From assembly GCA_017858055.1 (NCBI GenBank), contig JAFMCA010000002.1:1-64000 (forward strand): a DNA stretch of 64,000 bases. The letters are read 5' to 3'. Positions 11,686 to 28,014 of this stretch are shown here, one piece after another. The DNA comes from Flavobacteriaceae bacterium. GTDB lineage: Bacteria > Bacteroidota > Bacteroidia > Flavobacteriales > Flavobacteriaceae. The notes beneath the pieces are model-generated. The model saw only the letters and a program-made list of their open reading frames with translations. It was not told the origin of the DNA and did not search any database. Position 1 is the first letter of the stretch. Every line of letters begins with the position of its first letter. The position numbers were made by a program, and so were the translations under genes.

Positions 11686-11718
11686 AAAGGTCTTTGAAAT
11701 TATTCAAGGACCTTTTTT
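11686..11718. terminator. Rho-independent terminator between convergent genes
   Basis: Bases 11686-11698 pair with 11703-11715 as a 13-bp stem with one G-T wobble, followed on the plus strand by a T-tract that runs to 11718. It ends the DUF2911 transcript. The four-base loop contains most of the stop codon of the convergent SGNH hydrolase gene, so the same hairpin may also act on the minus strand, where the T-tract is weaker. Confidence 0.8.
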
Positions 11719-12383
11719 ATTGCTTTCTCTACCAGGGGCTCCAAAATCTTATACCCCTCCAAGGTAAGGTGAACACCGTCGTAACTATTTTCTTTGCTGA
11801 TACCATTATTTCCATCATCCAAAGCACTGAAATAATCCAGGTAGTAAACTCCGTTTCGATCGGCATAATTTTTAATCAAGGTGTTTAATTTGGGAATTTT
11901 CACATTGGGTTCCAGTCCAGGTCTCCAAGGATAATCGAAGGCAGGGAGTACAGAGCATAAAATTACTTTGACCCCATTGGCTTGGGCAATTTCTGTCATG
12001 GATTTAATATTGTCGAGGATCATTTCTAAAGTAGATGGACCCGTATTCCCCGCAATATCATTCGTCCCCGCTAAAATAACGACTGCTTTTGCACCTATAT
12101 CGATTACATCTGCACGAAATCGAACAAGCATTTGGGGGGTTGTTTGACCGCTGATGCCACGGTTTACATAAGGTTTGTTTTTAAAAAAATCAGGATGGGT
12201 GTTTAACCATCCGATGGTGATGGAATTTCCCATAAAGACAATTCTATGTTCCCCAGGTTCTGGAGCAGGAAGGGCTTCATTTGCAACTTTAAATTCTTGA
12301 AAGTTTGCCCAGTCTTGAGCAAGGAGACTTGAATTGGAAAGGAGTAAAAGGAAAACTGCAGTGAGCGATTTACGGATAAACAT
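11700..12383 (-). CDS. Secreted SGNH/GDSL hydrolase
   Basis: A 227-residue SGNH-family esterase or acetylhydrolase with a signal peptide (cleavage after about residue 22, SLLAQ). Block I is VFMGNSITIGW with the nucleophile Ser, block II is GISGQT, block III is LAGTND, and block V is DGVHLTLEGY with the catalytic Asp and His. Platelet-activating-factor-acetylhydrolase-like members of this type often remove acetyl groups from glycans. It follows the sialidase gene by 27 bases on the same strand, so a role in removing O-acetyl groups from sialylated or related sugars is a reasonable inference. Confidence 0.88.
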   Translation of the reverse strand: MFIRKSLTAVFLLLLSNSSLLAQDWANFQEFKVANEALPAPEPGEHRIVFMGNSITIGWLNTHPDFFKNKPYVNRGISGQTTPQMLVRFRADVIDIGAKAVVILAGTNDIAGNTGPSTLEMILDNIKSMTEIAQANGVKVILCSVLPAFDYPWRPGLEPNVKIPKLNTLIKNYADRNGVYYLDYFSALDDGNNGISKENSYDGVHLTLEGYKILEPLVEKAIKKVLE

Positions 12384-12410
12384 ACGATGTGTTTTGTTTT
12401 AAAAATAAGA

Positions 12411-13553
12411 TTATTTCTTGAGTTCTGAATAGGGAAAACGAATAAAATAGATCCCTGCTTGGTCTCTTTCATAGAAAAGCCCAATGTGGTCAGCATCAAT
12501 TTGAACCAAATCAGAATAGGCAGCAGTCCCAGGATAGATTTCTTTTTGGTATTTCCAGGTTTTACCAAAATCAAGACTTCCCTTGACGGTCATTTTCTCT
12601 CGTTTAGAATTGCTGTTTGGACCCGAATAGAGCAAGAGCGTATCCTGACTTCCCTCAAACAATACAATACTTGATTGACAAACGGGAGAGATCAACTCTG
12701 GATCGAATGTTTCAGAATCCCAAAACTCTCCCCCTGATTTACTTAAAGCAACCAATCGTTGTTTTGTCGCACCGTTTTGTTCACGCACATTTAGCAGGAG
12801 CGATCCGTCTGGGAGTTCGGCACCGATGCCTTCATTGGAGGATGGGGTGTTGAGGTCCGGACTTACTTTAAAGTCTTCTCCGTGATTATCTGAATAAAAT
12901 CCATAGGCACGGTATTCGTTAAAACCCTCCTGAGGAATTCCTTGAGAATGATTAGCGGGCACATAGATCCGTCCTTGATAAGGAGCTCTTTTAAATTGTA
13001 TTGCATGACCGGGTGTGGTAGCGTGTGTTCTCCAATCTCTTTCCTCATGACTAGACGTAGAATTAAAGTGTACTTGGTTCGTAATATTTTTTGGGGATGA
13101 CCAGGTTTGCCCTTGATCGACACTTGAAATATACCAAACCTCCCGTGTTCCCTTACCTAAGCGCATTTCGTGTTCAGAGGCATCCCCGGTGTTGTAAAAT
13201 AAAAAAATTCTTCCTTGGGGATAACGCGGATCAAAGAGATCAACGACAGGGGCTGGATTGCCTGCTTGGAGTTCTCCATAGTCAGCGACAACTTCCATTT
13301 GTGACCAGTGCCGCCCCCCATCCACACTTTTTTTGAGGAGGATGTCCACATTTCCGAAGTCCTCACAATTCGTTTTTCTTCCTTCAGCAAAGGCAAACAA
13401 CACCCCTTGAGGAGTTTGGATAAGAGCTGGAATTCGATAACATTGGTAACCTCCTTCTCCATTTCTAAAGAGGTGTGTCTCTAGGGAAGCATTCGGATTC
13501 GAGCAGCTCCAATTCATCAAGGATAAAACAATAGTTAAAGTCAGAAATCGCAT
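12411..13553 (-). CDS. Exo-alpha-sialidase-type lipoprotein (GH33-like)
   Basis: A 380-residue six-bladed beta-propeller glycosidase. The lipobox Cys is residue 17 (LMNWSC). The YRIP motif at 39-42 (variant of FRIP), AEGRK (Arg59) and a candidate catalytic Asp65 are visible. Asp-box repeats occur as SVDGGRHW (about 76-83), SSVDQGQTW and SLDFGKTW. The late GLFYERD is the usual nucleophile-tyrosine region. The ATG at 13553 is preferred because it opens the lipoprotein signal, rather than the GTG ten codons upstream. Some members of this family act on 2-keto-3-deoxynononic acid or rhamnogalacturonan instead of sialic acid, so substrate is not certain. Operon with the SGNH hydrolase. Confidence 0.85.
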   Translation of the reverse strand: MRFLTLTIVLSLMNWSCSNPNASLETHLFRNGEGGYQCYRIPALIQTPQGVLFAFAEGRKTNCEDFGNVDILLKKSVDGGRHWSQMEVVADYGELQAGNPAPVVDLFDPRYPQGRIFLFYNTGDASEHEMRLGKGTREVWYISSVDQGQTWSSPKNITNQVHFNSTSSHEERDWRTHATTPGHAIQFKRAPYQGRIYVPANHSQGIPQEGFNEYRAYGFYSDNHGEDFKVSPDLNTPSSNEGIGAELPDGSLLLNVREQNGATKQRLVALSKSGGEFWDSETFDPELISPVCQSSIVLFEGSQDTLLLYSGPNSNSKREKMTVKGSLDFGKTWKYQKEIYPGTAAYSDLVQIDADHIGLFYERDQAGIYFIRFPYSELKK

Positions 13554-13676
13554 GAATTCAATGATTAAAAATTTAAGATACACTAAAAAATAAATTGAAG
13601 AAAGCTTTATTGAAGAATACGATTTTCATCAACCTAATTTAAAAATTATTACATTTAGGAAACTAAAGCAATCATC

Positions 13677-15020
13677 ATGAATAATACCCTAGTCAAACGA
13701 CTTTTTATAAGCTGCTTCACTTTTTTTCTTTTTACAATTTCAAATGCTCAAAACTACACGCCCAGCCCAGAAAATCTAGAAGCGAGAGCCTGGTTTCAAG
13801 ATGCGCGTTTTGGACTTTTTGTCCATTGGGGAGTCTACAGTATTTTGGGGGATGGAGAATGGGTGATGAACAATCAAAACATCAGTATCGATGAATACGA
13901 AAAGCTCCCCAGCTTCTTTAATCCAATAGATTTTGATCCCGAAGAATGGGTCAGTATGGTCAAAGCTGCAGGGATGAAATACATCACGATTACCAGCAGA
14001 CACCACGACGGTTTTTCCATGTTCGACTCCAAAGTAACAGATTACGACATTGTTGAGGCGACTCCCTACGGTAAAGATGTCCTTAAAATGCTCGCTGAAG
14101 AATGCCGTAAACAGGGAATTAAATTATTTTTCTACTATTCACTTTTGGATTGGAATCGAGATGATTATTTCCCAAGGGGAAGAACAGGAAACGGAATTGC
14201 TGGAAGAGGTGAAGGAAAATGGGAAGATTATATTGCTTTTATGAAGGCCCAGCTTAAAGAATTGCTCACCAACTACGGAGAAATAGGAGGGATTTGGTTT
14301 GACGGTCATTGGGATCAAAAAGATTGGGATGGAAAAAAATTCGGTGACGTAAAAGTGGATTGGCATTATGATGAAATCTACGGAATGATTCATGAAATGC
14401 AACCTCAGGCGTTAATTGGAAACAACCATCATATCGGGGTCATTGAGGGAGAAGATTTTCAAATGTTTGAAAAAGATTTGCCAGGAAAAAACTCTACAGG
14501 GTGGGGTACTCCAGCGGATCAAATTGGAAGTGTACCTCTAGAGGTGTGCGAAACCATCAATGGATCATGGGGCTTTAATTTACAAGACAGAAAGCATAAA
14601 TCTGAGAAAGAACTGATCCACTATTTAATAAAGGCTGCTGGTTACGGAAGTAATATGTTGTTAAATGTAGGCCCCATGCCTAATGGAAAAATTCAACCTG
14701 AGCACCAAGCTTCCTTGAGAGCGATGGGCGATTGGTTACAGGTGAATGGAGAAACGATTTACGGAACACGAAAAGGACCCATTCCTCCAAATGACGATTT
14801 CGTTTCTACTCAAAAGGGGAAGACAGTTTTCGTTCATTTATTAAACCCCGAGGTTTCCATTTTACATGCAGACCAAGTCCCAGTTAAAATAAAGGCTGTT
14901 TACGATTGGAAGACAAATCAAAAGTTAGCTTACAGAAATGATAGTTTTGGTTTCTCAATCGACGTTTCCAAAATAGACAAAAATGATATTGATACAGTAA
15001 TTAAAATTGAATTGAGATGA
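13677..15020 (+). CDS. Alpha-L-fucosidase, GH29 (secreted)
   Basis: A 447-residue GH29 enzyme that would release alpha-L-fucose from glycans. A signal peptide ends near NAQ (residue 25). Typical motifs are FGLFVHWGVYS, SRHHDGFSMFDS (His-His-Asp at 109-111) and GGIWFDGHWD with the predicted nucleophile Asp209. The catalytic (beta/alpha)8 domain runs to about 345, and a C-terminal beta-sandwich completes the protein. It is the first gene of a packed operon with sulfatases and a second fucosidase, and its stop overlaps the next start (ATGA). Confidence 0.9.
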   Translation: MNNTLVKRLFISCFTFFLFTISNAQNYTPSPENLEARAWFQDARFGLFVHWGVYSILGDGEWVMNNQNISIDEYEKLPSFFNPIDFDPEEWVSMVKAAGMKYITITSRHHDGFSMFDSKVTDYDIVEATPYGKDVLKMLAEECRKQGIKLFFYYSLLDWNRDDYFPRGRTGNGIAGRGEGKWEDYIAFMKAQLKELLTNYGEIGGIWFDGHWDQKDWDGKKFGDVKVDWHYDEIYGMIHEMQPQALIGNNHHIGVIEGEDFQMFEKDLPGKNSTGWGTPADQIGSVPLEVCETINGSWGFNLQDRKHKSEKELIHYLIKAAGYGSNMLLNVGPMPNGKIQPEHQASLRAMGDWLQVNGETIYGTRKGPIPPNDDFVSTQKGKTVFVHLLNPEVSILHADQVPVKIKAVYDWKTNQKLAYRNDSFGFSIDVSKIDKNDIDTVIKIELR

Positions 15021-16114
15021 GCACTGAAAAAAAATTAGAAAACCGTTTAGTATCTCTTGATTTTTTTAGAGGGCTGGTAATGTTTTTACTTATTGCAGAA
15101 TTTGCTCATTTGTTTGATGTATTGATGAAATCTGGAAATGAACAAGTGACGGCTGTCATGGACTTTATGTTTCATCACGTAAAATGGGAAGGGTTGCATT
15201 TTTGGGATTTAGTACAACCGTTTTTTATGTTTATCGTGGGGGTTTCTATTCCTCTATCGTATGCCAATCGTAAGAAAAAAGGAGATTCGGAGAGTCAAAT
15301 ACGGAATCATGCCTTGCGAAGAGCCTTTTTATTATTGCTTTTTGGATGGGGTCTCTACTGTATTGGACCCGAAAAAATCATCTTTCAATTTGATAATGTT
15401 TTAGCGCAATTGTCGTTCACTTATTTGATCTCCTTTCTTTTGTTGAAACAATCTTCAACAGTTCAAATTGCCGCTGGATTTGTTTGCATCCTGATCTCCG
15501 ATTTGTTGTATCGTTTCTTCCCAGTAGTCGGCTTTGATCAGGCTTTTGTGGCTGGAGAAAATTTTGGTGCTTGGTTTAATATTTTTATTTCCGGGTACGA
15601 ATACGGCGGACATTGGGCAGCATTTAATGCCTTACCTACTGCTGCGCATACCTTGTGGGGTGTTGTGGCTGGGAAGTGGTTGATGGAGAATTCTACTTCA
15701 ACCGAGAAGTTAAAAAGAATTCTAATGGCAGGAATAATTGCGCTAGCCTTGGGGTATGGTACGACCTTTTTTACCCCAGTGATTAAAAGAATTTCGACCA
15801 CCTCCTTTGTTTTACTTTCTGCGGGGTGGACTTACTTAGCATTGGCGTTATGTTATTGGCTCATCGATGTTAAGCAATTGATTAAAAAGACCTTAGTCTT
15901 TCGTGTGGTAGGGGTGAATCCTCTCTTTATTTATCTTTTTGCCTCGCTTGGAGGTGGAGGTTTGTTTTTAAAGGTTATCCGACCCTTTTCCAATACGCTG
16001 ATCGGTGGATACTCCCCTTGGCTAGCCGATTTATTTTCCGGTTTTGTAGTGCTTTTTGGGCTTTGGTATTTGTGTTATTGGTTATATAAAAAGAAGATTT
16101 TTATAAAAATTTAA
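15017..16114 (+). CDS. NagX/DUF5009-type membrane acyltransferase
   Basis: A 365-residue integral membrane protein with about ten hydrophobic segments. The opening RLVSLDFFRGLVMFLLI and QPFFMFIVGVSIPLSYANR are the signature of the heparan-alpha-glucosaminide N-acetyltransferase/DUF5009 family. Related bacterial proteins sit in sugar-utilisation loci and are thought to transfer acetyl groups across the inner membrane to sugars. Here it may modify a sugar released by the fucosidases and sulfatases before uptake. It overlaps the upstream gene by four bases and ends one base before the next start. Confidence 0.8.
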   Translation: MSTEKKLENRLVSLDFFRGLVMFLLIAEFAHLFDVLMKSGNEQVTAVMDFMFHHVKWEGLHFWDLVQPFFMFIVGVSIPLSYANRKKKGDSESQIRNHALRRAFLLLLFGWGLYCIGPEKIIFQFDNVLAQLSFTYLISFLLLKQSSTVQIAAGFVCILISDLLYRFFPVVGFDQAFVAGENFGAWFNIFISGYEYGGHWAAFNALPTAAHTLWGVVAGKWLMENSTSTEKLKRILMAGIIALALGYGTTFFTPVIKRISTTSFVLLSAGWTYLALALCYWLIDVKQLIKKTLVFRVVGVNPLFIYLFASLGGGGLFLKVIRPFSNTLIGGYSPWLADLFSGFVVLFGLWYLCYWLYKKKIFIKI

Positions 16115-16115
16115 A

Positions 16116-17600
16116 ATGAAATATACTGCCCTCTTGTTTGTTGGATTTATGTACTTGGGATGTGCCACTCCGGAGCATACGACAATCCAGGCTCCGAATA
16201 TCATTTATATTTTAGCGGACGATTTGGGCTATGGTGAAATTGGTGCTTACGGTCAAGAAAAAATAAAAACTCCCAACTTGGATCGCCTAGCGGCAGGAGG
16301 GATGCGGTTTAGCCAACACTATACGGGAGCCCCTGTTTGTGCTCCTTCCCGATATATGTTTTTAACAGGAACTCATGCGGGTCATGCCTATATTAGAGGG
16401 AACTATGAGTTGGGGCAATTTGAAGATGAAAATGAAGGTGGGCAGATGCCCATACCTGAAACCACACCAACTTTAGCGAAAATGCTTAAAAAAGCAGGAT
16501 ATCAAACTGCTTTAGTCGGGAAGTGGGGATTGGGAATGAATGGAACAACAGGAAGTCCTTTACTGCAAGGATTTGATTATTATTATGGCTATTTAGATCA
16601 AAAACAAGCGCATAATTATTATCCTACCCATCTTTGGGAAAACGATGTTGTAGCCCCTTTGGATAACGATTATTTTTTAGTTCATACTCCAATTGAAAAG
16701 GGAAGTAATCAGCAAGCATTTGAACAATTTAAAGGGAGAGACTATGCCCCAGACAGAATGATTGATAAGGCTTTACATTTTTTGGATACGACCAATGTTC
16801 AAAAACCTTTTTTTCTTTATTATCCTTCTCCTATTCCTCACGTATCCATTCAAGTTCCAGATTCTTTGGTAAGCTATTATCAGGGAAAGTTTGAGGAAAA
16901 GCCGTATTATGGAGATAATGGATACACTGCCCATCAATATCCATTTGCTGCCTATGCTGCGATGATCACTCATTTGGATTCTGAAGTTGGAAAACTTTGG
17001 GAGGCGGTTAAAGCACGTGGTCAAGAAGAAAACACCCTGATCCTTTTTACCAGTGATAATGGACCCACCTTCGCTGGCGGTGTTGATACCGAATATTTCA
17101 ACAGTGCTGCAGGGTTTAGGGGGTTGAAAATGGATGTTTATGAAGGAGGAATTCGAATTCCTTTTATCGCTTATTGGAAAGGAAAAATTGCAGCAGGATC
17201 TCATTCGGACCTTGTTTCTGGACATTGGGATATGTTCAACACTTTTGCGGAATTAAGCGGTCAAGAGCAAAGTGCTCCAGATGGAATCTCAATTTTACCC
17301 GAACTACTCGGTAAAGAAGGACAAAAGCAACATGAGTTTCTTTATTTTGAATATCCCGAAAAGCGAGGGCAAATTGCACTTAGAATGGGAGATTGGAAAG
17401 GAGTGAAAGTGGAAATGAAAACCAACCCTAAGGCAACATGGGAATTGTATGACTTAAAAAATGATCCAAGTGAAAAAATAAATTTGGCCTCTCAATACCC
17501 AGAAATTGTTCAAAAAATAGACTCCTTACAACGAATAGCACACCGGCATCCCCACATTCGAGAATGGGAATTTATCGACCCAAAATTTAATAAACAGTAA
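16116..17600 (+). CDS. Sulfatase lipoprotein (S1 family, formylglycine type)
   Basis: A 494-residue sulfatase that would hydrolyse sulfate esters on a glycan. The lipobox is YLGC (Cys16). Metal-binding Asp35-Asp36 lie in ILADDLGYGE. The signature CAPSR begins at Cys75, the residue converted to formylglycine in this family. FTSDNGP carries further metal ligands, and GKWGLG contains the usual active-site Lys. A C-terminal subdomain ends the protein. Activation needs an anaerobic or aerobic sulfatase-maturing enzyme, which is not in this window. Confidence 0.9.
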   Translation: MKYTALLFVGFMYLGCATPEHTTIQAPNIIYILADDLGYGEIGAYGQEKIKTPNLDRLAAGGMRFSQHYTGAPVCAPSRYMFLTGTHAGHAYIRGNYELGQFEDENEGGQMPIPETTPTLAKMLKKAGYQTALVGKWGLGMNGTTGSPLLQGFDYYYGYLDQKQAHNYYPTHLWENDVVAPLDNDYFLVHTPIEKGSNQQAFEQFKGRDYAPDRMIDKALHFLDTTNVQKPFFLYYPSPIPHVSIQVPDSLVSYYQGKFEEKPYYGDNGYTAHQYPFAAYAAMITHLDSEVGKLWEAVKARGQEENTLILFTSDNGPTFAGGVDTEYFNSAAGFRGLKMDVYEGGIRIPFIAYWKGKIAAGSHSDLVSGHWDMFNTFAELSGQEQSAPDGISILPELLGKEGQKQHEFLYFEYPEKRGQIALRMGDWKGVKVEMKTNPKATWELYDLKNDPSEKINLASQYPEIVQKIDSLQRIAHRHPHIREWEFIDPKFNKQ

Positions 17601-17602
17601 GC

Positions 17603-19072
17603 ATGAAAAAAAAGAATTGGAAGTCTACCCTCCTCATCCTCATTTTGATACCCCTGAGCATCTCCTGTATTTCGGTTTCGGTGGGTACTGTAGAACCGGT
17701 TGGACCGATTCCCAATAAACATCAACTGGCTTGGCAAGAATTGGAATACTATGCCTTTATTCATTTTAACATGAACACCTTTACGAATATGGAATGGGGT
17801 TATGGAGATGAAAAACCAGCACAATTTAACCCAGCCGCATTGGACACACGTCAATGGGCTCAAGTAGCAAAGGAGGCTGGGATGAAGGGGATTATCATAA
17901 CCGCCAAACACCACGACGGATTTTGTCTTTGGCCTAGTGAATTTACCGAACATTCTGTAAAAAATTCCCCTTGGAAAGATGGGCAAGGAGATTTGATTCG
18001 TGAATTGTCCGATGCCTGTGAAGAATATGGATTAAAATTTGGGGTTTACCTTTCTCCTTGGGATCGAAATCATCCCGATTATGGGAAGCCCGAATATATT
18101 ACCTATTTCAGGAATCAGCTCCGAGAATTGCTGACCAATTACGGAGATGTATTTGAAGTTTGGTTTGATGGTGCCAATGGAGGGGATGGCTATTATGGAG
18201 GAGCAAATGAAGAGCGGAGGGTTGATAAGAAAAACTATTACGATTGGCCAAATACTATTAAAATGGTTCGGGAATTGCAACCTCAAGCAGTTATCTTTAG
18301 CGATGCCGGGCCAGACATTCGTTGGGTTGGAAACGAAAAAGGCTATGCCAACGAAACTACTTGGTCCCCTCTATACAGAGACAGTGTTTATGCAGGAATG
18401 CCAGATTTTCAGCGTTTTGCTGCAGGTCAAGAGCAAGGAACCCATTGGGTACCTACAGAAACGGATGTTTCTATCCGACCCGGTTGGTATTACCATCCCG
18501 AGCAAGACAATCAAGTAAAATCCTTATCGAAATTGGTTGATATATATTATAATTCTGTAGGTTTAAACAGCTCACTTTTATTAAATTTACCTGTGGATAC
18601 TCGTGGTCTAGTTCACGAAAATGAAGTCAAAAATTTAAATGAACTTGCGGCTTATATAAAAGCCACTTTCACTAAAAATCTTGCTCTTTCCCAACCAATC
18701 CGTACAAGTTCTACTGCCGAAGGATATGCTGAAGGGTATTTAATCGATAATAATCCAGACACCTTTTGGGTTGCTACAGCGGATGACGAAAAACCGAGCA
18801 TCACACTTTTACTAAATACAGCCCAAGAAGCCAATACTTTTATGATTCAGGAATATCTCCCTTTGGGCCAGCGAATCAAATCCTTTACTTTTGAAGTGTT
18901 GGTTAACGGAGTTTGGGAAAAAGTTTACGAGGGGTCAACCATAGGAAACAAACGATTAATTCGATTTGAAACCCAGGCTCTTGATGGAGTTCGTTTTACG
19001 GTTACCGATTCAAAAGCACAAGCAGTATTTTCTAATATGGGTCTTTTTAAAGCACCCGAACTAAGGGATTAA
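17603..19072 (+). CDS. Alpha-L-fucosidase GH29 with C-terminal F5/8-type domain (lipoprotein)
   Basis: A 489-residue lipoprotein (LSISC, Cys22) with a GH29 catalytic barrel: AKHHDGFCLWPS (His103, His104), YLSPWDRN and VWFDGANGG with predicted nucleophile Asp189. From about residue 355 a discoidin/F5-8 type C beta-sandwich follows (NLALSQPIRTSSTAEGY, DTFWVA). It differs clearly from the fucosidase at 13677, being closer to the GH29 subgroup that is more linkage-restricted, so the two probably attack different fucosyl linkages. It is two bases after the sulfatase stop. Confidence 0.88.
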   Translation: MKKKNWKSTLLILILIPLSISCISVSVGTVEPVGPIPNKHQLAWQELEYYAFIHFNMNTFTNMEWGYGDEKPAQFNPAALDTRQWAQVAKEAGMKGIIITAKHHDGFCLWPSEFTEHSVKNSPWKDGQGDLIRELSDACEEYGLKFGVYLSPWDRNHPDYGKPEYITYFRNQLRELLTNYGDVFEVWFDGANGGDGYYGGANEERRVDKKNYYDWPNTIKMVRELQPQAVIFSDAGPDIRWVGNEKGYANETTWSPLYRDSVYAGMPDFQRFAAGQEQGTHWVPTETDVSIRPGWYYHPEQDNQVKSLSKLVDIYYNSVGLNSSLLLNLPVDTRGLVHENEVKNLNELAAYIKATFTKNLALSQPIRTSSTAEGYAEGYLIDNNPDTFWVATADDEKPSITLLLNTAQEANTFMIQEYLPLGQRIKSFTFEVLVNGVWEKVYEGSTIGNKRLIRFETQALDGVRFTVTDSKAQAVFSNMGLFKAPELRD

Positions 19073-19074
19073 GA

Positions 19075-20616
19075 ATGCAAAGAGTTGTTGTCGTTGTATC
19101 GTTTCTTCTTTTACTTATTTCTTCTTGTCAACCCCCTGAGAATGAGAGCACCCCTCCAAATATTGTTCTTTTTTTTGTCGATGACATGGGATGGCAAGAT
19201 ACTTCCGTTCCTTTTTGGAATCAATTGACGAATTTTAACAAAACATACAAGACGCCAAATATGGAGCGTTTGGCTAAAAAAGCTGTAAAATTTACCAATG
19301 CGTATGCAACCCCGGTATGTTCACCAACACGCGTGAGTTTATTGACCGGAATGAATGCTGCCCGTCATCGGGTAACCAATTGGACCTTAAAGCCCGATCA
19401 AAAGCAACCCATGGAACTCGATCATCCTATCCTGGAGTTCCCAGATTGGAATTACAATGGAATTGGTTTAGATTCCTTAACACCCCATGCAGCTTATGCT
19501 AAGCCCTTCCCTCAACTATTAAAAGACAACGGGTATTATACCCTACATGCAGGGAAAGCCCATTTTGGAGCGATAGGATATCCTTCTTCAAACCCTTTGA
19601 ATCTGGGATTTCAAATTAATATTGCAGGACATGCTGCAGGTGCCCCGGGAAGTTATTTGGGACAAGACCACTTTGGAAATGGAAAACCTGGAAGAGAAGT
19701 TTGGGCCGTTCCAGGCCTTGAAAAATATCATGGGCAAGAGATTTTTCTTACCGAAGCACTCACCCAAGAAGTTGTTCAAGCTTTGGATACTCCTGTTCAA
19801 AACAAGCAGCCTTTTTTCTTGTATTTTGCACTTTACGGAATTCATACTCCATTAATGCCAAACAATCGTTTTATTGCGCCTTATCGAGAAAAGGGGATGG
19901 AGGAACCTGAGGCTCGATATGCTTCTATGATTGAATCTATGGATGAAGCTTTAGGAAATGTAATGAATTACCTTGAAGACAATCAACTGGAGGACGACAC
20001 TATTATTTTGTTTATGTCTGATAATGGAGGTTTAAGTGCGTCGGCTCGGGGAGGTGAAAAGCACACCCATAACCTTCCACTAAAAAGTGGTAAAGGTTCT
20101 ATTTATGAGGGAGGAATTCGAGTGCCTATGATGGCCTATTGGCCTGGTAAAAGTGAAGCAGCTTCTGTTAATTCAACCCCCTTAATTATAGAAGATTTTT
20201 TTCCCTCCATTTTAGAGATGGCTCAAATCGAGTACACGGAAATTCCTCAAAAAGTAGATGGGCGCAGTTTTGTGCCTTTACTAAAAGGATCGACAAACGA
20301 TAAAGTAAAACCCTTGTTTTGGCATTATCCCAATAATTGGGGTTCTGAAGGTCCTGGAATTGGAAGTTTTAGCGCGGTCCGACAAGGAGAATGGAAATTG
20401 ATATATTTTCATGCCAATCAAACTCTTGAATTATACAATTTAGAAAAGGACCTAGGGGAGAATCACAACCTATTCGAATCTAACAGCGAGCTGGCAGCGC
20501 AGTTGGCAGAAACTTTAACCCAGCATTTAATTTCAGTTCAAGCCCAGATGCCCATCGTCAAAACCACCAAACAAATTGTACCTTGGCCCAACGCTATTTT
20601 TAAACGCACTAAATGA
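19075..20616 (+). CDS. Sulfatase lipoprotein (S1 family, formylglycine type)
   Basis: A 513-residue second sulfatase of the operon. The lipobox is LISSC (Cys18), metal-binding Asp36-Asp37 are in FFVDDMGW, and the signature CSPTR begins at Cys82. HAGKAHFG and MSDNGG are further active-site segments. It differs in sequence from the sulfatase at 16116 (CSPTR versus CAPSR), so the two probably remove sulfate from different positions. Its stop overlaps the start of the next small gene as ATGA. Confidence 0.9.
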   Translation: MQRVVVVVSFLLLLISSCQPPENESTPPNIVLFFVDDMGWQDTSVPFWNQLTNFNKTYKTPNMERLAKKAVKFTNAYATPVCSPTRVSLLTGMNAARHRVTNWTLKPDQKQPMELDHPILEFPDWNYNGIGLDSLTPHAAYAKPFPQLLKDNGYYTLHAGKAHFGAIGYPSSNPLNLGFQINIAGHAAGAPGSYLGQDHFGNGKPGREVWAVPGLEKYHGQEIFLTEALTQEVVQALDTPVQNKQPFFLYFALYGIHTPLMPNNRFIAPYREKGMEEPEARYASMIESMDEALGNVMNYLEDNQLEDDTIILFMSDNGGLSASARGGEKHTHNLPLKSGKGSIYEGGIRVPMMAYWPGKSEAASVNSTPLIIEDFFPSILEMAQIEYTEIPQKVDGRSFVPLLKGSTNDKVKPLFWHYPNNWGSEGPGIGSFSAVRQGEWKLIYFHANQTLELYNLEKDLGENHNLFESNSELAAQLAETLTQHLISVQAQMPIVKTTKQIVPWPNAIFKRTK

Positions 20617-21525: not shown

Positions 21526-21550
21526 ACTATTTTTTTTTAAAAGTAAAAAT

Positions 21551-21575
21551 AATAAATGACACCGTGTCATTTATT
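21551..21575. promoter_or_regulatory. Perfect 25-base palindrome, candidate TetR-family operator
   Basis: The 12-base arms 21551-21562 and 21564-21575 are exact reverse complements around a central C, with core ATGACACCGTGTCAT. It lies between the divergent SCP2-like gene and the FadN-thiolase-TetR operon, 29 bases before the FadN start and 26 bases before the chosen SCP2 start. Dyads of this length and position are typical of TetR-family operators. A TetR regulator is the last gene of the operon, so autoregulation and acyl-CoA-responsive repression are inferred. Confidence 0.75.
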
Positions 21576-21603
21576 TAATTAATTTTAAACATTCAAAACC
21601 TAT

Positions 21604-24009
21604 ATGATGAAGTATCGATTGAAAAAAGTAGCCGTTTTAGGATCTGGAGTAATGGGATCAGGTATTGCCTGCCATCTTGCAAATGTTGGGATGGAGGTGT
21701 TGATGTTGGACATGGTCACCCCCAATCTAGACTCCTCTCAATCCAAGGTGAAGGCTCAGCGAAATAAAATGGTGGACATGGCGCTCCAAAATTCCATCAA
21801 ATCCAAACCCGCCCCATTATATCACAATTCCTTTGCCTCAAGGATTCGTACTGGGAATTTTGAGGATGATTTTGAACAAATTCAGGACGCCGATTGGATC
21901 ATTGAGGTGGTTGTGGAAAATCTAAAGATTAAAAAACAGATTTTTGAAAAGGTTGAACAGTATCGTAAAGAAGGAAGTTTGGTGAGTTCCAACACCTCGA
22001 GCATCCCTATTCATTTGTTAGCGGAAGGACGATCAGATGATTTTAAAGCTTGTTTTTGTGGAACCCATTTCTTTAATCCGGCGCGTTACTTGCGCTTATT
22101 AGAGGTAATTCCAATAAAAGAAACCCAGCAAGTTGTGGTTGATTTCTTTATGGAGTTTGGGAAAAGAACTTTAGGAAAACAAACGGTTTTATGTAAAGAC
22201 ACTCCAGCCTTTATAGGAAATCGGATTGGGGTAATGTCAGGAACCGAGATGACCCTCCTCACAGAACAATTCCAGTTTAAAATTGAAGAAGTAGATGCCA
22301 TGACAGGATCCTTAATAGGTCGTCCAAATACAGCCACGTTCAGATTACAGGATCTGGTCGGTTTGGATACTGGAGATAAGGTAAGCCGTTTCGTTAGGGA
22401 AAATGTCACTGGAGATGCTTATATCGATAAGCTCAAAGATCGACCCGAGCCTAAATTTATGAAGTTTCTTTTGGAGCATTCGTTTTTAGGGAACAAAACG
22501 GGCAAAGGTTTTTACGAAAAAACCCAAAAAAAAGATGAAAATGGAAACTCTATTATAAATGCACTTAATCTCCAAACCCTAACCTATGAAACCGCTATTC
22601 GTCCTAAAATGGAAGTAGTGAAAACAGCCAAGGGGATGGAATTAATGAATAAGCGACTGCAATTTCTTGTTGAGGGAGAAACCAGAGAGCAGCAATTTTT
22701 TAGTGCTTATTTTGGTCAGCTTTTTGGGTATGCTGCTGCTCGTATTCCTGAAATTTCCGATCAATATTTTCCGGTAGACGATGCAATGCGAACAGGTTAT
22801 TTTTGGGATTACGGGCCATTTGAGTACTGGGATTTAATCGGGTTTGATCTCGGAGTTCGATTGATAGAAAATGCAGGAGCATCTTTACCCAAGTGGGTAC
22901 AGGAAATGAAAGCCTCTGGGAATACCCAGTTTTACAAATTTGAAGGAGGTCAGAAAAAATACTACAACACGAGTTCCAAACAATATGAGGCCGTTCCTGG
23001 AACAGAATCTTTTATCCTTTTGGATAGTTATAGAGAACAGGCACCTGTGATAAAAAATAGTGAATGTGTCGTTCACGACATCGGCGATGGGGTACTGTGT
23101 CTTGAATTTACCAGTAAAAGCAATTCCATCGGAGAAGGAATTGGAAAAGCCTTTTTAGAGGCTATCGAATTGGCTGAAGCTGGGAATTGGAACGGTTTGG
23201 TAATAGGGAATAATGCCAAGCAGTTTTCTGTCGGGGCAAATCTGATGAATATCGGGATGGTCGCCATGCAAAAACAATTTGATGTCCTGGAACGCTTTGT
23301 CGATGATTTTCAACAAATCAACATGAGAATCCGTACGTCTAAAATTCCAGTGGTCGTTGCCACCCAAGGGTATGTATTTGGAGGTGGCTGTGAAATTGCA
23401 ATGCATTGCGATGCTGGAATTTATGCCGCCGAATCCTATATTGGTTTAGTCGAAGTTGGTGTAGGTCTGCTCCCCGGTGGAGGAGGCACAAAAGAATTTG
23501 CCCTTCGCGCTTCAGACGAATTTTTCGAGGGAGATGTTCAATCTCCTACCTTGATTAACTATTTTAAATCAATTGCAACTGCTGCGGTTTCTACTTCAGC
23601 ATACGAAGCCTATGATTTGAAATATTTACAAAAAGAAAGGGACGAAGTCTGTGTTAATACCTTCATGAATATTGGTCTTGCTAAAGAAAAGGTTTTGGAT
23701 TTAGCTAAAAACTATATCCCTCCAGCAGCAAGACAAGACATCAACGTTTTGGGTAGAGCCGGGATGGGTGTCCTTTATTCCGCTATAAATGAATTTCGAA
23801 TGGGGGAGTATATGTCCGATTACGATGTGGAAATCGCTCGCAAAATTGCATATGTAATGTGTGGAGGAGATTTAACTTCACCTCAACAGGTTAGTGAACA
23901 ATACCTTTTGGATATTGAAAGGGAAGGATTTATGAGTCTGCTTGGAAATCAAAAAACATTGGATCGTATTCAATACTTATTAATGAACAACAAACCCTTA
24001 AGAAACTAG
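21604..24009 (+). CDS. fadN: FadN-type 3-hydroxyacyl-CoA dehydrogenase/enoyl-CoA hydratase
   Basis: An 801-residue bifunctional beta-oxidation enzyme with the domain order of Bacillus FadN: dehydrogenase first, hydratase last. The NAD-binding motif GSGVMGSG is at about 13-20, and THFFNPARYLRLLEVI holds the catalytic His of the dehydrogenase. The crotonase domain starts near 475. Both hydratase glutamates appear present, in GGGCEIAMHCD and in VEVGVGLLPGGGG. It would hydrate enoyl-CoA and oxidise 3-hydroxyacyl-CoA in the cytoplasm. The thiolase gene follows after three bases. Confidence 0.92.
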   Translation: MMKYRLKKVAVLGSGVMGSGIACHLANVGMEVLMLDMVTPNLDSSQSKVKAQRNKMVDMALQNSIKSKPAPLYHNSFASRIRTGNFEDDFEQIQDADWIIEVVVENLKIKKQIFEKVEQYRKEGSLVSSNTSSIPIHLLAEGRSDDFKACFCGTHFFNPARYLRLLEVIPIKETQQVVVDFFMEFGKRTLGKQTVLCKDTPAFIGNRIGVMSGTEMTLLTEQFQFKIEEVDAMTGSLIGRPNTATFRLQDLVGLDTGDKVSRFVRENVTGDAYIDKLKDRPEPKFMKFLLEHSFLGNKTGKGFYEKTQKKDENGNSIINALNLQTLTYETAIRPKMEVVKTAKGMELMNKRLQFLVEGETREQQFFSAYFGQLFGYAAARIPEISDQYFPVDDAMRTGYFWDYGPFEYWDLIGFDLGVRLIENAGASLPKWVQEMKASGNTQFYKFEGGQKKYYNTSSKQYEAVPGTESFILLDSYREQAPVIKNSECVVHDIGDGVLCLEFTSKSNSIGEGIGKAFLEAIELAEAGNWNGLVIGNNAKQFSVGANLMNIGMVAMQKQFDVLERFVDDFQQINMRIRTSKIPVVVATQGYVFGGGCEIAMHCDAGIYAAESYIGLVEVGVGLLPGGGGTKEFALRASDEFFEGDVQSPTLINYFKSIATAAVSTSAYEAYDLKYLQKERDEVCVNTFMNIGLAKEKVLDLAKNYIPPAARQDINVLGRAGMGVLYSAINEFRMGEYMSDYDVEIARKIAYVMCGGDLTSPQQVSEQYLLDIEREGFMSLLGNQKTLDRIQYLLMNNKPLRN

Positions 24010-24012
24010 ATT

Positions 24013-25182
24013 ATGGAGGCATACATTATAAAAGGCTATCGATCTGCCATTGGAAAAGCAAAAAAGGGTGGGTTTAAAAATTACCGCTCAGACGATTTAG
24101 CTGTAGATATAATCAAACATTTGATGACTACAGTTCCTGAGATCGACCCTAAAACTGTAGACGATGTCATCGTGGGATGCGCCAACCCGGAAGGAGAACA
24201 GGGGTTACAAATCGGACGTTTAATTTCAGCAAGAGCTTTGGGTAAAGAAGTACCTGGAGTAACCATAAACCGGTATTGTGCTTCTGGATTGGAAGCAATC
24301 GCTCAAGCCGTAGCTAAAATCAAAGCGGGATTTGGGTCCATTTATGTCGCTGGAGGGATAGAAAGCATGAGCATGATTCCGATGACGGGTTACAAACTTT
24401 CACCCAGCTACAAGGCCAATTTAGAAAATTTAAATTACCACGTCAGTATGGGTCATACGGCTGAAGCCGTTTCTTCAAAGTACGGCATCAGCAGAGAGGC
24501 AGCGGATCGGTTCGCTTATGAATCGCATCAAAAAGCAGCTGCGGCCATAAATGGAGGAAAGTTTGATGATCAAATTGTGGCTGTAGAAGTAGAAGACGTT
24601 TTCGTTAAAGACGGAAAAAAAATCACGAGCAGCCACGTTGTGGCTATGGATGAAGGAGTCCGCAGAGACACTACTTTGGAGGGGTTGGCAAAATTAAGAC
24701 CCGTTTTTAAAAGTGGAGGAGTGATTACTGCAGGGAATGCCTCCCAAACCTCAGACGGAGTAGCATTTACTTTGGTGGTAAGCGAAGCGGTAGTCAAAGC
24801 ATTAAATTTAGAGCCTATCGCTCGATTGGTTTCTTGTGCAGTGGCAGGCGTTGATCCGCTCTATATGGGTATTGGTCCTTGTGTAGCTATACCCAAAGCA
24901 TTAAAACAAGCCGGTTTATCCCTTTCAGACATTGAGCAAATTGAACTCAATGAGGCTTTTGCTGCTCAGGCACTTGCTGTAATTCAGGAAGCGGGTTTAA
25001 ATCCAGACCTCGTTAATGTAAATGGAGGGGCTTTAGCCCTAGGGCATCCGTTAGGGTGTACGGGTGCTAAATTAACCATACAGCTTTTGGAAGAAATGAA
25101 ACTGCGAAATCAAAAATACGGCATGGTAACGGCCTGTGTCGGAGGAGGTCAAGGGATCGCTGGGGTGTTTGAACGCTTGTAA
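24013..25182 (+). CDS. fadA: Acetyl-CoA C-acyltransferase (thiolase)
   Basis: A 389-residue thiolase that cleaves 3-ketoacyl-CoA to acetyl-CoA and a shortened acyl-CoA. The acyl-accepting Cys89 lies in [14 protein letters not shown], the His at about 345 in [14 protein letters not shown], and the second Cys at about 375 in [10 protein letters not shown]. It pairs with the FadN-type enzyme directly upstream. An acyl-CoA dehydrogenase and ligase, which often accompany these genes in Bacteroidota, are not in this operon. Confidence 0.93.
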
Positions 25183-25185
25183 AGA

Positions 25186-25791
25186 ATGGAAGAGTTTGAT
25201 GTAGTTTTGGGGAAACGAGAAATTCAGAAGCAGCAAATACGAGAACGTATTTTAGCCGAAGGCCTGACGTTGTTTTCAGAAAGAGGATTAGAAAAAACTA
25301 CTGTGGCAGACATCGTGGGGAAAAGCGGGATCGCTCGTGGAACCTTTTACAACTATTTTTCCGACATGAATGCGCTTTTTGACGCCTTGATTGAACAACT
25401 CAACCAACAGGTGGTGGAATCCATTCAGCATACTCGTAAGCAAAGCAAAAACTTATACGATTACCTTTACGGTACATTTAAAGGTTACTTTGACTTGATT
25501 GGTAATGAACCTATGCTTCAATTTCATATCATCAATCAAGCTCATATCCGCCAGAGTTCCTATCAGAGTGAGATCATCAAAACGATCGTCAAAAACCTAA
25601 ATCGAGATTTAAAATCGGATTTAAAAGTCAAGGCTTTTAATGAAAAATACGAGTTTTTATTGCTTAGCTATATGTTGGTGGGTACCCCACCTGAACTCTT
25701 TTTAGCAACCCAAACTACAGAGATCAATCTTACCAGTGAGCAGTTGGCTACTTTTCTAACAAAACTATTTTATAAGGTATTGATGGAGTAG
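25186..25791 (+). CDS. TetR-family transcriptional regulator
   Basis: A 201-residue repressor-type protein. The N-terminal helix-turn-helix spans about residues 18-64 (ILAEGLTLFSERGLEKTTV, GIARGTFYNYFSDM). The C-terminal ligand-binding domain is all-helical. Its gene begins three bases after the thiolase stop, so it is part of the beta-oxidation operon. The perfect palindrome at 21551-21575 in the operon's control region is its most likely binding site, with an acyl-CoA as likely inducer. Both points are inference from position and family habit. Confidence 0.88.
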   Translation: MEEFDVVLGKREIQKQQIRERILAEGLTLFSERGLEKTTVADIVGKSGIARGTFYNYFSDMNALFDALIEQLNQQVVESIQHTRKQSKNLYDYLYGTFKGYFDLIGNEPMLQFHIINQAHIRQSSYQSEIIKTIVKNLNRDLKSDLKVKAFNEKYEFLLLSYMLVGTPPELFLATQTTEINLTSEQLATFLTKLFYKVLME

Positions 25792-25803: not shown

Positions 25804-26142
25804 TTGTCCTCTTTTATCCTCCCAAATCAAAACTTCCTTACTCCTCGCATCAAAAAAGTCAGCACATTTGCCATCACCTTGTCCTGTAATGCCTCCATCG
25901 GGATGACAGATGAGGCTGCAGTTTTCGTCGTATAATTCACTAAAAACATCACAACAACGCTGTGGAAAAAAATAGACCACCTTCCCCTGATAGCTGTAAC
26001 GATAGACTTTTGCCGGCGGATTCCAAACGGCTTCTTTTTCGATTTGTTTTATTTTGGATTGGATACAATCGGGGAGCGCTGCTTCGGTTTCTTTCGTACA
26101 GCAAATGAGAAGAAGTAGGAATAGGGCTAGGGTATATTTCAT
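25801..26142 (-). CDS. Small lipoprotein, DUF6970-like
   Basis: A 113-residue lipoprotein (lipobox LLICC) whose mature part contains YRYSYQGKVVYFFP, QRCCDVFSELYD, CHPDGGITGQGDGKC and a final LIWEDKR. I associate this pattern with DUF6970, a family without established function, and the name is from memory. Its start overlaps the umuD stop as ATGA, so it is translationally coupled to the translesion polymerase genes. A link to DNA damage is suggested by position only, since a lipoprotein has no obvious role there. Confidence 0.7.
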   Translation of the reverse strand: MKYTLALFLLLLICCTKETEAALPDCIQSKIKQIEKEAVWNPPAKVYRYSYQGKVVYFFPQRCCDVFSELYDENCSLICHPDGGITGQGDGKCADFFDARSKEVLIWEDKRGQ

Positions 26143-26570
26143 AATTTTTTTACCACATAGGTCACAATCCCCCAGATGATAAGTTCGTTTTCTTCATTCA
26201 TCTTAATGGGTTTGTAATTCGGATTTTCAGGCATTAAAAAGATCCCCTCTGCGGCTACTTTCAGTCGTTTAACGGTAAACTCTCCATCGATATAGCAAAC
26301 GGCAATTTTATCGTGTTGAGGTTCTAAACTCCGGTCAATTACTAAAAGATCTCCATCGTCTAGTCCTGCGCCTTGCATGGATTGCCCAGAGACTCGCGCA
26401 TAGAAGGTAGCTTCCTCGTTACGAACCACTTCCTGATCGATACTGATTCGCAGTTCTTTAAAGTCGTCAGCGGGTGAAGGAAAACCGGCAGAAATTCCTT
26501 CTTGTGCCAAGTGCAACGATTTCTGATGGTCTTGATCCGGATGAAAAAAGCTTAGTTTTTGTTTTGTCAT
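26139..26570 (-). CDS. umuD: UmuD-type self-cleaving subunit of translesion polymerase
   Basis: A 143-residue S24-family protein. The probable RecA-stimulated cleavage site is Ala28-Gly29 in SAGFPSPADDF. The Ser-Lys dyad is Ser64 (SGQSMQGAGL) and Lys101 (GEFTVKRL), matching the spacing of Escherichia UmuD. There is no DNA-binding domain, which separates it from LexA. It lies three bases downstream of umuC, the reverse of the usual umuD-umuC order, and overlaps the next lipoprotein gene. Confidence 0.92.
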   Translation of the reverse strand: MTKQKLSFFHPDQDHQKSLHLAQEGISAGFPSPADDFKELRISIDQEVVRNEEATFYARVSGQSMQGAGLDDGDLLVIDRSLEPQHDKIAVCYIDGEFTVKRLKVAAEGIFLMPENPNYKPIKMNEENELIIWGIVTYVVKKL

Positions 26571-26573
26571 AAG

Positions 26574-27833
26574 TTATTTTACCGTAATAATTTCACTGAT
26601 TTCGGTTGTAAAACGTTGAGAGAGGTGCTTTTGCTTCATTTTCCAAGTGCGTTCCAAATCTTGGTTGGCGAGCTTTATTCGATGCGGACCAAAGCGCTGG
26701 TGAATGCGGTCTAAAGCTTGCATAACCGCCAGATGTTTTACTTCTTTTCCTTCGAATAAAGGAAGTTGACGTGAAGCGGTAGGCACTAGCCCCATAATCA
26801 TAACCCCTGCTTTTTTATAGTGGATACCCTCTTTAAAGATTTTACGGAGTCCTGTCACAGCATATTTGCTCAACATGATGCTGGAGTTGGTTGCATAGGG
26901 TAGGCTGAGGACGCAGCTATTTCGGTAGGGGATTGCTCCTTTTTTGTGAGGATCGCTTCGTACAAAAACGAGTAGGGCTGTACAGCTGCTCCCTTGTTTT
27001 CGCATTTTTTCGGCGCAGCTGCTAGCAAAGGTAGAGACCCGTTCTTCCAAATCGGGAAAGCTCGTAAGTGTTCCTTCGAAGCTTCGTGTAGTGGCGATCC
27101 CTTTTTTAGGAGACTGAATTTCTTCCAATTGAATAGAAGGGATGCCTTGTAAATCTTTTTTAAGCCGGAGTCCTAAAATGCTCATTTGTTTTCGAATCCA
27201 ATCATCGGGAAGTAAGGTAAATTCCCAAGCGTTTGTAACACCTATGGCTTCAAGTCGTTTGCGATGCTGCCTACCGATACCCCAAACATCTCCAATGGCA
27301 GTCCATTTCAGTGCCTTGATTTTTTTCTCTTCGGTGTCAATGCAATACACGCCACCTGTCTTTACGTCGTATTTTTTAGCAATTTTATTGGCAATCTTAG
27401 CTAAAGCTTTACTAGGAGCCATACCTACAGAAACGGGAATGCCTGTCCAACGGCGGACTTGCTTTCGCATTCGACGCCCTTCGGCTTCTAGATTGAATAA
27501 ATCAAAACCTTTGAATTGTAAAAAGGCTTCGTCTATACTGTAAATTTCGATATTGGGAGTGTACTGATCTAAGATGGACATCACCCTACTACTCATGTCG
27601 CCATAGAGGGGGTAGTTGGAGGAAAACACTTTGATTTTTTTTTCCTTAAAAAAAGATTGGTATTGAAAGGCAGGAGCTCCCATAGGAATTCCCAAGGCCT
27701 TGGCTTCATTGCTCCGCGCAATTACACAACCGTCATTATTAGAAAGGATAACGATAGGTTTGCCCTCCCATTGCGGCTGAAAAACCCGCTCACAAGAGGC
27801 GTAAAAATTGTTACAATCGACCAGTGCAAACAT
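26574..27833 (-). CDS. umuC: UmuC-type Y-family DNA polymerase
   Basis: A 419-residue translesion polymerase catalytic subunit. The first metal-binding Asp is Asp6 in MFALVDCNNFYASCERVF, and the second motif is YSIDEAFL with Asp101-Glu102. The finger segment SNNDGCVIARSNEAKALG, two helix-hairpin-helix regions (GIGRQHRKRLEAIG) and the C-terminal little-finger domain follow. The ATG at 27833 is preferred over a TTG two codons upstream because the family starts with M-ALVDCNN. It is the first gene of the operon, followed by umuD. I could not identify a clear LexA box in the 175 bases upstream. Confidence 0.93.
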   Translation of the reverse strand: MFALVDCNNFYASCERVFQPQWEGKPIVILSNNDGCVIARSNEAKALGIPMGAPAFQYQSFFKEKKIKVFSSNYPLYGDMSSRVMSILDQYTPNIEIYSIDEAFLQFKGFDLFNLEAEGRRMRKQVRRWTGIPVSVGMAPSKALAKIANKIAKKYDVKTGGVYCIDTEEKKIKALKWTAIGDVWGIGRQHRKRLEAIGVTNAWEFTLLPDDWIRKQMSILGLRLKKDLQGIPSIQLEEIQSPKKGIATTRSFEGTLTSFPDLEERVSTFASSCAEKMRKQGSSCTALLVFVRSDPHKKGAIPYRNSCVLSLPYATNSSIMLSKYAVTGLRKIFKEGIHYKKAGVMIMGLVPTASRQLPLFEGKEVKHLAVMQALDRIHQRFGPHRIKLANQDLERTWKMKQKHLSQRFTTEISEIITVK

Positions 27834-28014
27834 GGTCAAAAGGTAGTTAAAATGTTCTGTTTTTTGAGCAGCATCGTTTTAAAAAAAAGCAGTTTGCCCC
27901 TCTTTTTTTTAAAAATAGTTTTTGTGTAATCCCGGCGGTATTTTTCTAAAAATAAAGAAGCACTTCAATCAAAAGTTGTAATTTTACGCTTGGATTTTAG
28001 TAGCGCTTTTTTGC

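Follow-up and report, generated by a model that had tools for sequence, protein, structure and literature searches.

A predicted operator at a flavobacterial fadN promoter, with a TetR regulator that appears to have replaced an older MarR site

The palindrome and its neighbours

The window, by which we mean the whole stretch of 64,000 nucleotides that was analysed, has as its longest exact inverted repeat (spacers of 0-2 were searched) a perfect palindrome centred on C21563. An earlier note on this DNA had described 25 bases with exact 12-base arms around one C, and the sequence confirms this (Table 1). Simulation of 40 first-order Markov sequences, each 64 kb long, produced no arms of at least 12, and arms of at least 11 had a mean of 0.1 per simulated sequence. 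The palindrome lies in the intergenic gap between an SCP2 gene on the minus strand and fadN on the plus strand. The genes fadN, fadA and tetR are consecutive with gaps of 3 bases, so a TetR-type gene does close the FadN operon, as the note had it. FadN has the domain order of a FadN-type fusion, with Pfam PF02737 at 8-200, PF00725 at 203-305 and PF00378 at 500-631.

Table 1. Coordinates of the palindrome, the possible promoter elements and the genes around them in the window
Feature	Position	Strand	Remarks
Predicted TetR operator, perfect 12+1+12 dyad	21551..21575	.	Genus consensus AAAAARTGACACNGTGTCAYTTTTT
Dyad core TGACAcNgTGTCA	21557..21569	.	As TGACAcNrTGTCA in 27/28 relatives' fadN upstream regions
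Possible fadN -7 promoter element TAATTTTA	21580..21587	+	First base 17 nt to the right of the dyad centre; consensus TAnnTTTG from the available part of PMC9723704
Possible SCP2 -7 promoter element TACTTTTA (read on the - strand)	21538..21545	-	Starts 18 nt off the dyad centre
SCP2-domain protein, 98 aa	21229..21525	-	Pfam PF02036; probable true start 21525, not 21570
fadN, 3-hydroxyacyl-CoA dehydrogenase / enoyl-CoA hydratase fusion	21604..24009 (start 21604 or 21607)	+	Pfam PF02737, PF00725, PF00378
fadA, acetyl-CoA C-acyltransferase (thiolase)	24013..25182	+	Pfam PF00108, PF02803; NCBIfam TIGR01930 above cut-off
TetR-family regulator, predicted dyad binder	25186..25791	+	Pfam PF00440; AlphaFold2 model with a TetR fold

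The SCP2 protein scores 66.8 bits with PF02036 against a cut-off of 21.3. Its long reading frame does start inside the dyad, as had been claimed. Across the genus this in-dyad start is in an open frame with SCP2 at 7 of 34 loci, while the internal start is an ATG in 34 of 34. The shorter protein (MSLENM...) is therefore most probably the real one, and an annotation that begins at 21570 is probably wrong. The earlier note spoke of a lone SCP2 lipid carrier. The gene is no isolated oddity, since a related genus has it between etfB and fadN. The gene stands opposite fadN in the window's genus and in two genomes of other genera (G139 and G020), a position that points to a lipid or acyl carrier serving beta-oxidation.

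Two other groups of genes in the window must be noted. From 11700 to 20616 the ORF list reads as a run of sulfatase-, fucosidase-, sialidase-like and SGNH-type genes, a probable cluster for the use of sulfated polysaccharides. Genes of SOS type, umuD/umuC-like by reading, lie at 26139-27839. We rejected them as the reason for the dyad because it recurs at the unlinked etfB.

Sites and promoters across the genus

A FadN search of relatives' contigs gave 29 loci, 28 of them with upstream sequence. The core is present upstream of fadN in all but one of these 28 (Table 1), and the exception (L060) has a distant FadN (54%) and neither SCP2 nor TetR. As far as the contigs extend, the order SCP2, fadN, fadA, TetR is constant at every locus except L060. 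Outside the core the bases drift among relatives and are mostly A-runs and T-runs. At two loci (L051 and L061) the dyad has widened to a perfect palindrome of 45 bases that starts 66 bases upstream of fadN. It covers most of the -7-like element on both sides, which makes the divergent promoters near mirror images.

Of 38 genus genomes, 36 contain the pattern RTGACANNNTGTCAY, at 73 sites in all, whereas the reversed pattern, used as a control, gave 2; in 25 of the 38 the number of exact sites is exactly two. Six query proteins were compared with the sequence around every one of the 73. Seventy are at beta-oxidation promoters: 34 at SCP2/fadN, 33 at etfB and 3 at an etfD/fadF-like gene. The other three (L114, L134, L140) have no query match nearby, and their A-run/T-run flanks are missing from at least one side. 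A site matrix was built from 69 sites, leaving out these three and one that contains an N (L108).

In the window's own genome (2.0 Mb) the second site is at etfB (C45:28955), 41 nt from its start codon, and etfA is the next gene. The strict 15-mer has 2 sites in this genome against 0 for the reversed control. Inexact sites are background there, both for the 15-mer with two mismatches (14 against 12 reversed) and for the 13-mer with one (31 against 29). Two candidate sites were set aside: C20:1121 is inside a peptidase-like reading frame and C25:51738 is just inside a lon-like one (both named from translations). A scan found no dyad at fadD, fadE, a second acyl-CoA dehydrogenase, other AMP-binding genes or the etfD-like gene of this genome. 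Because fadD and fadE have no site, the regulon would fall short of the whole pathway. The small fatty-acid regulon predicted by the earlier note is supported by the 70 sites, but it would be broader than one locus, taking in etfB in most genomes and the etfD-like gene in some.

The third target encodes an Fe-S protein of 438 residues. Besides the 3 exact sites upstream of it, the matrix scan gave slightly degenerate sites in 4 further genomes. A site is present at 6 of the 29 fetched loci that contain the gene start (L154, L155, L177-L180), and also in G174 (L131). At the siteless loci with printed upstream sequence the gene begins within a few bases of a preceding mlaD-like gene (by reading). 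The protein has Fer4 domains and, by eye, membrane helices; in the window's own genome (G000) the CCG domain (PF02754) is on a separate downstream gene. Judged by their domains, the two gene products together resemble EtfD/FadF. In mycobacteria EtfD connects ETF with menaquinone, and its homologue in B. subtilis is FadF, according to the available portion of PMC13083937.

The start codons of fadN, SCP2 and etfB are 35-46 nt from the dyad centre, and mostly 38-43. In all 34 SCP2 promoters and 32 of the 34 fadN promoters a relaxed -7 box, TAnnTTWR, has its first base at +17 or +18. The strict TAnnTTTG is found at 17-18 nt in 16 of 34 SCP2 promoters, in none of the 34 fadN promoters and in none of the 33 etfB promoters. 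The relaxed form is at +17 in 6 of the 33 etfB promoters, most of which read TAnnTTCG by eye. In Flavobacterium psychrophilum the TAnnTTTG box spans -12 to -5, as stated in the accessible text of PMC9723704. Applied here, this spacing would place the dyad at about -42 to -17 in each promoter, with transcription predicted to start about 29-30 bases from the dyad centre. From this geometry one bound dimer could block the divergent SCP2 and fadN promoters together.

TetR, the MarR box and the FadN tree

The regulator belongs to the TetR/AcrR family by its TetR_N domain (Pfam PF00440), which scores 50.7 bits against a cut-off of 24. Its AlphaFold2 model is an all-helical TetR fold of 11 helices that includes the C-terminal ligand/dimer domain. 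Confidence in the model is moderate, with a mean pLDDT of 77, falling to 53-63 over residues 121-170. With VIA-align it reaches a Z of at least 8 for 833 of the 1000 chains compared, and the best 50 are all TetR-type regulators by title. FadR of B. subtilis with stearoyl-CoA (3whc_A) aligns at Z 16.9 (rmsd 2.5, 179 aligned). No more than 1 Z unit separates the FadR proteins of B. subtilis and B. halodurans from the best match, and EthR and others tie with them at Z 16-17. When Foldseek hits are ordered by E-value, KstR2, EthR2 and Rv0078 lead and FadR appears from rank 18. Neither fold comparison separates FadR from EthR-type regulators. The best NCBIfam model is MtrR (46.5 bits) and the second is FadR (44.2 bits), both far below their cut-offs; that of the FadR equivalog (NF053878) is 200 bits. 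The protein cannot be filed as FadR, yet the evidence says it would work like one. Given the modelled fold, acyl-CoA is a plausible ligand.

Regulator and dyad share their distribution. We compared 58 loci with sequence upstream of fadN and counted a dyad when it was within 120 nt of that gene; one locus with TetR (L056) was excluded because its upstream sequence is missing. TetR and dyad occur together at 27 of the 58 loci, 26 in the genus and one in another genus (G139). The dyad is missing in 30 of the 31 loci without TetR, and the exception (L059) is on a contig that ends inside fadN. The earlier note had proposed to see if the dyad follows this TetR group and beta-oxidation genes. It does, at 27 of 27 TetR loci with upstream sequence and at 70 of 73 sites. 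We argue that the dyad is very probably the operator of the TetR that ends the fadN-fadA operon.

The TetR of G139 is 51% identical and has the same ARGTFYNYF stretch in the presumed recognition helix. The SCP2/fadN gap of this genome contains the site TGACATAGCGTCA, with 10 of 12 arm pairs, and these 25 bases equal those of the site at the Fe-S gene of a genus member (L180). A search with the relaxed pattern and at most one mismatch found no second dyad in G139, an 86% complete genome. Elsewhere the regulator is rare. Only 3 of 395 genomes of the phylum have a match at E <= 1e-12, the window's own and two weak partial ones (G304, G366). Among 149 genomes of the family, only G137 (same genus), G139 and G014 stand far above the TetR background; a TetR match at E <= 0.001 in 131 of the 149 shows only the shared domain. 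The G014 protein (39%) is in another context, beside aldehyde-dehydrogenase-like and polA-like genes and without the dyad. In 19 genomes besides G139 the relaxed pattern AARTGACNNNNNGTCAYTT with at most one mismatch has 54 forward matches and its reversed control 35; two of the 54, in G012 and G056, are exact. Such palindromes are somewhat commoner than the control outside the TetR clade.

One TetR gene (L048:8292-8876) looks mosaic by eye, its N-terminal part being like L063 and the rest like L037, while its FadN groups with L063. This would be recombination or an assembly join.

Other genera have a different arrangement. In the fadN loci fetched from 28 of them FadN is 47-50% identical (45-50% in the whole list, G020 apart). 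A MarR gene is directly upstream in 27 of the 28 (not in L196), fadA is downstream in all of them, and a fadE start lies within the 1.5 kb fetched in 16. Upstream of marR there is a palindrome of the form TTTAYTATGCRYGCATARTAAA. With at most 2 mismatches and within 700 nt of fadN this MarR box is found at 24 of the 58 loci, namely 23 marR-fadN-fadA operons and G020; 4 more of the 58 have it with 3-4 mismatches. No locus of the 58 has both a TetR dyad and a MarR box (at most 2 mismatches) upstream of the same fadN. The sequence TAYTATGCRYGCATARTA is present in 18 of 19 genomes searched, against 0 for the reversed control, and the box is at etfB in 6 of 9 other Flavobacteriaceae genomes. In two genomes (G049, G034) it is also upstream of a gene that reads as nitronate monooxygenase-like (L230:518-1465 and L248:511-1458, both on the minus strand), which is a possible third MarR target.

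In G020 FadN is 69% identical and there is no clear TetR, SCP2 adjoins etfB, and the MarR box is in the SCP2/fadN gap. The centre of this box is 18 nt from a TAnnTTTG box, within one base of the distance kept by the TetR dyad. In the etfB promoters of other genera the MarR box is 28-30 nt from the relaxed -7 box. It is farther out than the dyad, which implies that the new operator there is in a different spot. The window's genus has not given up the MarR box: six of the 8 genomes searched (G000, G151, G155, G164, G183, G184) have it at marR-fadE. The sole exact box of G179 (L236:1501-1518) is away from marR, flanked by a peptidase-like gene and a repeat protein. In G137, a 98% complete genome with two TetR dyads, there is no MarR match at E <= 1e-10 and no exact MarR box, and this species may have lost MarR.

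The FadN tree unites the 27 genus rows in a single clade (100/94). Nearest to it are G139 and G020, though their mutual grouping is weak (94/65), and L060 attaches to this group by a long branch (100/100). The 28 mainstream rows are set apart from these 30 by another long branch, which has full support. The simplest account of this tree is a change from MarR box to TetR dyad. In a common ancestor the old fadN-fadA would have given way to a diverged fadN-fadA with SCP2, controlled by MarR in the manner of G020. The TetR gene would then have been added and its operator would have taken the fadN promoter, as in G139 and the genus. Later the operator would have reached etfBA in the genus, and then the Fe-S gene in a few species. 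Alternatively, G020 may have lost TetR and regained a MarR box. We infer that replacement ran from MarR to TetR, and that the TetR dyad appears to have taken the place of an older MarR site that relatives still use.

Mechanism, rivals and known systems

We propose the following mechanism and hold it with good confidence. A TetR dimer on the dyad would cover the -33/spacer region of both divergent promoters and so shut SCP2, fadN, fadA and its own gene. At the second copy it would repress etfBA, the electron acceptor of acyl-CoA dehydrogenases, and at the third copy in some relatives the gene for the etfD/fadF-like Fe-S protein. Fatty acyl-CoA would probably free the repressor, by analogy with the Bacillus FadR, which C14-C20 acyl-CoA releases from DNA. 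TetR and its operator would have displaced the older MarR control at fadN and etfBA, with MarR retaining the marR-fadE unit.

The dyad could also be a true operator that is bound by a factor encoded elsewhere (CRP/FNR-type or another global regulator), with the adjacent TetR controlling something else. Several dimeric regulators might recognise a 13-bp core that has inverted TGACA arms, and fad genes are commonly under non-local ones. We consider this unlikely because dyad and regulator share their distribution at 27 of 27 TetR loci, including a second genus. Two exact sites in 25 of 38 genomes are what one expects of a local rather than a global regulator, and the TetR gene is inside the operon that would be controlled. 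It is quite improbable that TetR on the dyad activates or acts dually. The -33 region that the dyad overlaps is open to an activator too, and the -7 boxes of fadN and etfB never match TAnnTTTG exactly at 17-18 nt, a departure that activator-dependent promoters may show. However, a dimer centred just 17-18 nt from the -7 box is expected to keep polymerase off, and a regulator within its own controlled operon suits a repressor. B. subtilis FadR, the fad TetR with the most similar targets, represses (PMC4525379, in the portion available).

Nor does it make much sense for the palindrome to be an RNA or DNA structural element, such as a terminator, an attenuator or a chance A/T-rich repeat. A hairpin is conceivable, given the perfect symmetry and the A/T-rich flanks, but the palindrome lies upstream of both presumed -7 boxes, so transcripts from them would not include it. 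The flanks change among relatives and the core is conserved, the core recurs at the unlinked etfB and etfD-like promoters, and arms of 12 bases are absent from simulated sequence. We regard this last explanation as very remote. The preferred reading is still repression by the TetR of the operon.

The system has known counterparts. The predicted operator here is TGACAcNgTGTCA; the B. subtilis FadR box is of the TGAATGA type. FadR (YsiA) is a TetR regulator with boxes at its target promoters, and the targets include fadN-fadA, etfBA and fadF (PMC4525379; PMC13083937, in the text available from each). Our regulator is like it in family, in having predicted boxes at promoters and in the predicted targets fadN-fadA and etfBA, and FadR structures are among its best fold matches. 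It differs in sequence, with 14-20% identity in structural alignments and 44 bits against the NCBIfam cut-off of 200. The target sets also overlap only in part. FadR has fadN, fadA, etfBA, fadF, fadE and acyl-CoA ligases; here fadN, fadA and etfBA have the site, the fadF/etfD-like gene has it in some genomes, and fadE and fadD are siteless in the window's own genome. A further difference from FadR is that the predicted regulon takes in an SCP2 gene.

Replacement of one regulator by another has precedents. In proteobacteria PsrA and FadP (TetR) control fatty acid degradation where FadR (GntR) does not, and these are described as non-orthologous substitutions in the accessible part of PMC5343134. 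The likeness is a TetR regulator of fatty acid degradation that replaces a regulator of another family. The differences are the phylum and a predecessor of the MarR type, the box of which persists at this promoter in a related genus. Another counterpart is the flavobacterial marR-fadN-fadA-fadE operon, which has the same enzyme types, etfBA as a second target and a palindromic box that is some 18 nt away from the -7 box. It has MarR and TAYTATGCRYGCATARTA instead of TetR and TGACAcNgTGTCA, and its FadN is 45-50% identical. A search of titles and abstract openings, with subscription journals mostly outside its reach, returned no report of the dyad, the TetR group or the MarR box. The kind of system is known from FadR-like regulators; here the replacement of one regulator by another would have left an unusually clear trace.

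It can be suggested, tentatively and at somewhat less than even chances, that these genomes keep the steps of a pathway-wide takeover, from G020 to G139 to the genus to a few of its species. The end state would split the cycle between MarR at fadE and TetR at the later steps and electron transfer, and the two sensors may read different acyl-CoA intermediates.

An unannotated palindrome thus gains a likely function, and a TetR group for which our search gave no described role gains a predicted operator and a regulon of two to three promoters. The MarR box would be a second operator, for the main beta-oxidation operon of the Flavobacteriaceae. With apparent living intermediates of the replacement, a change of control over a whole pathway without its loss becomes testable.
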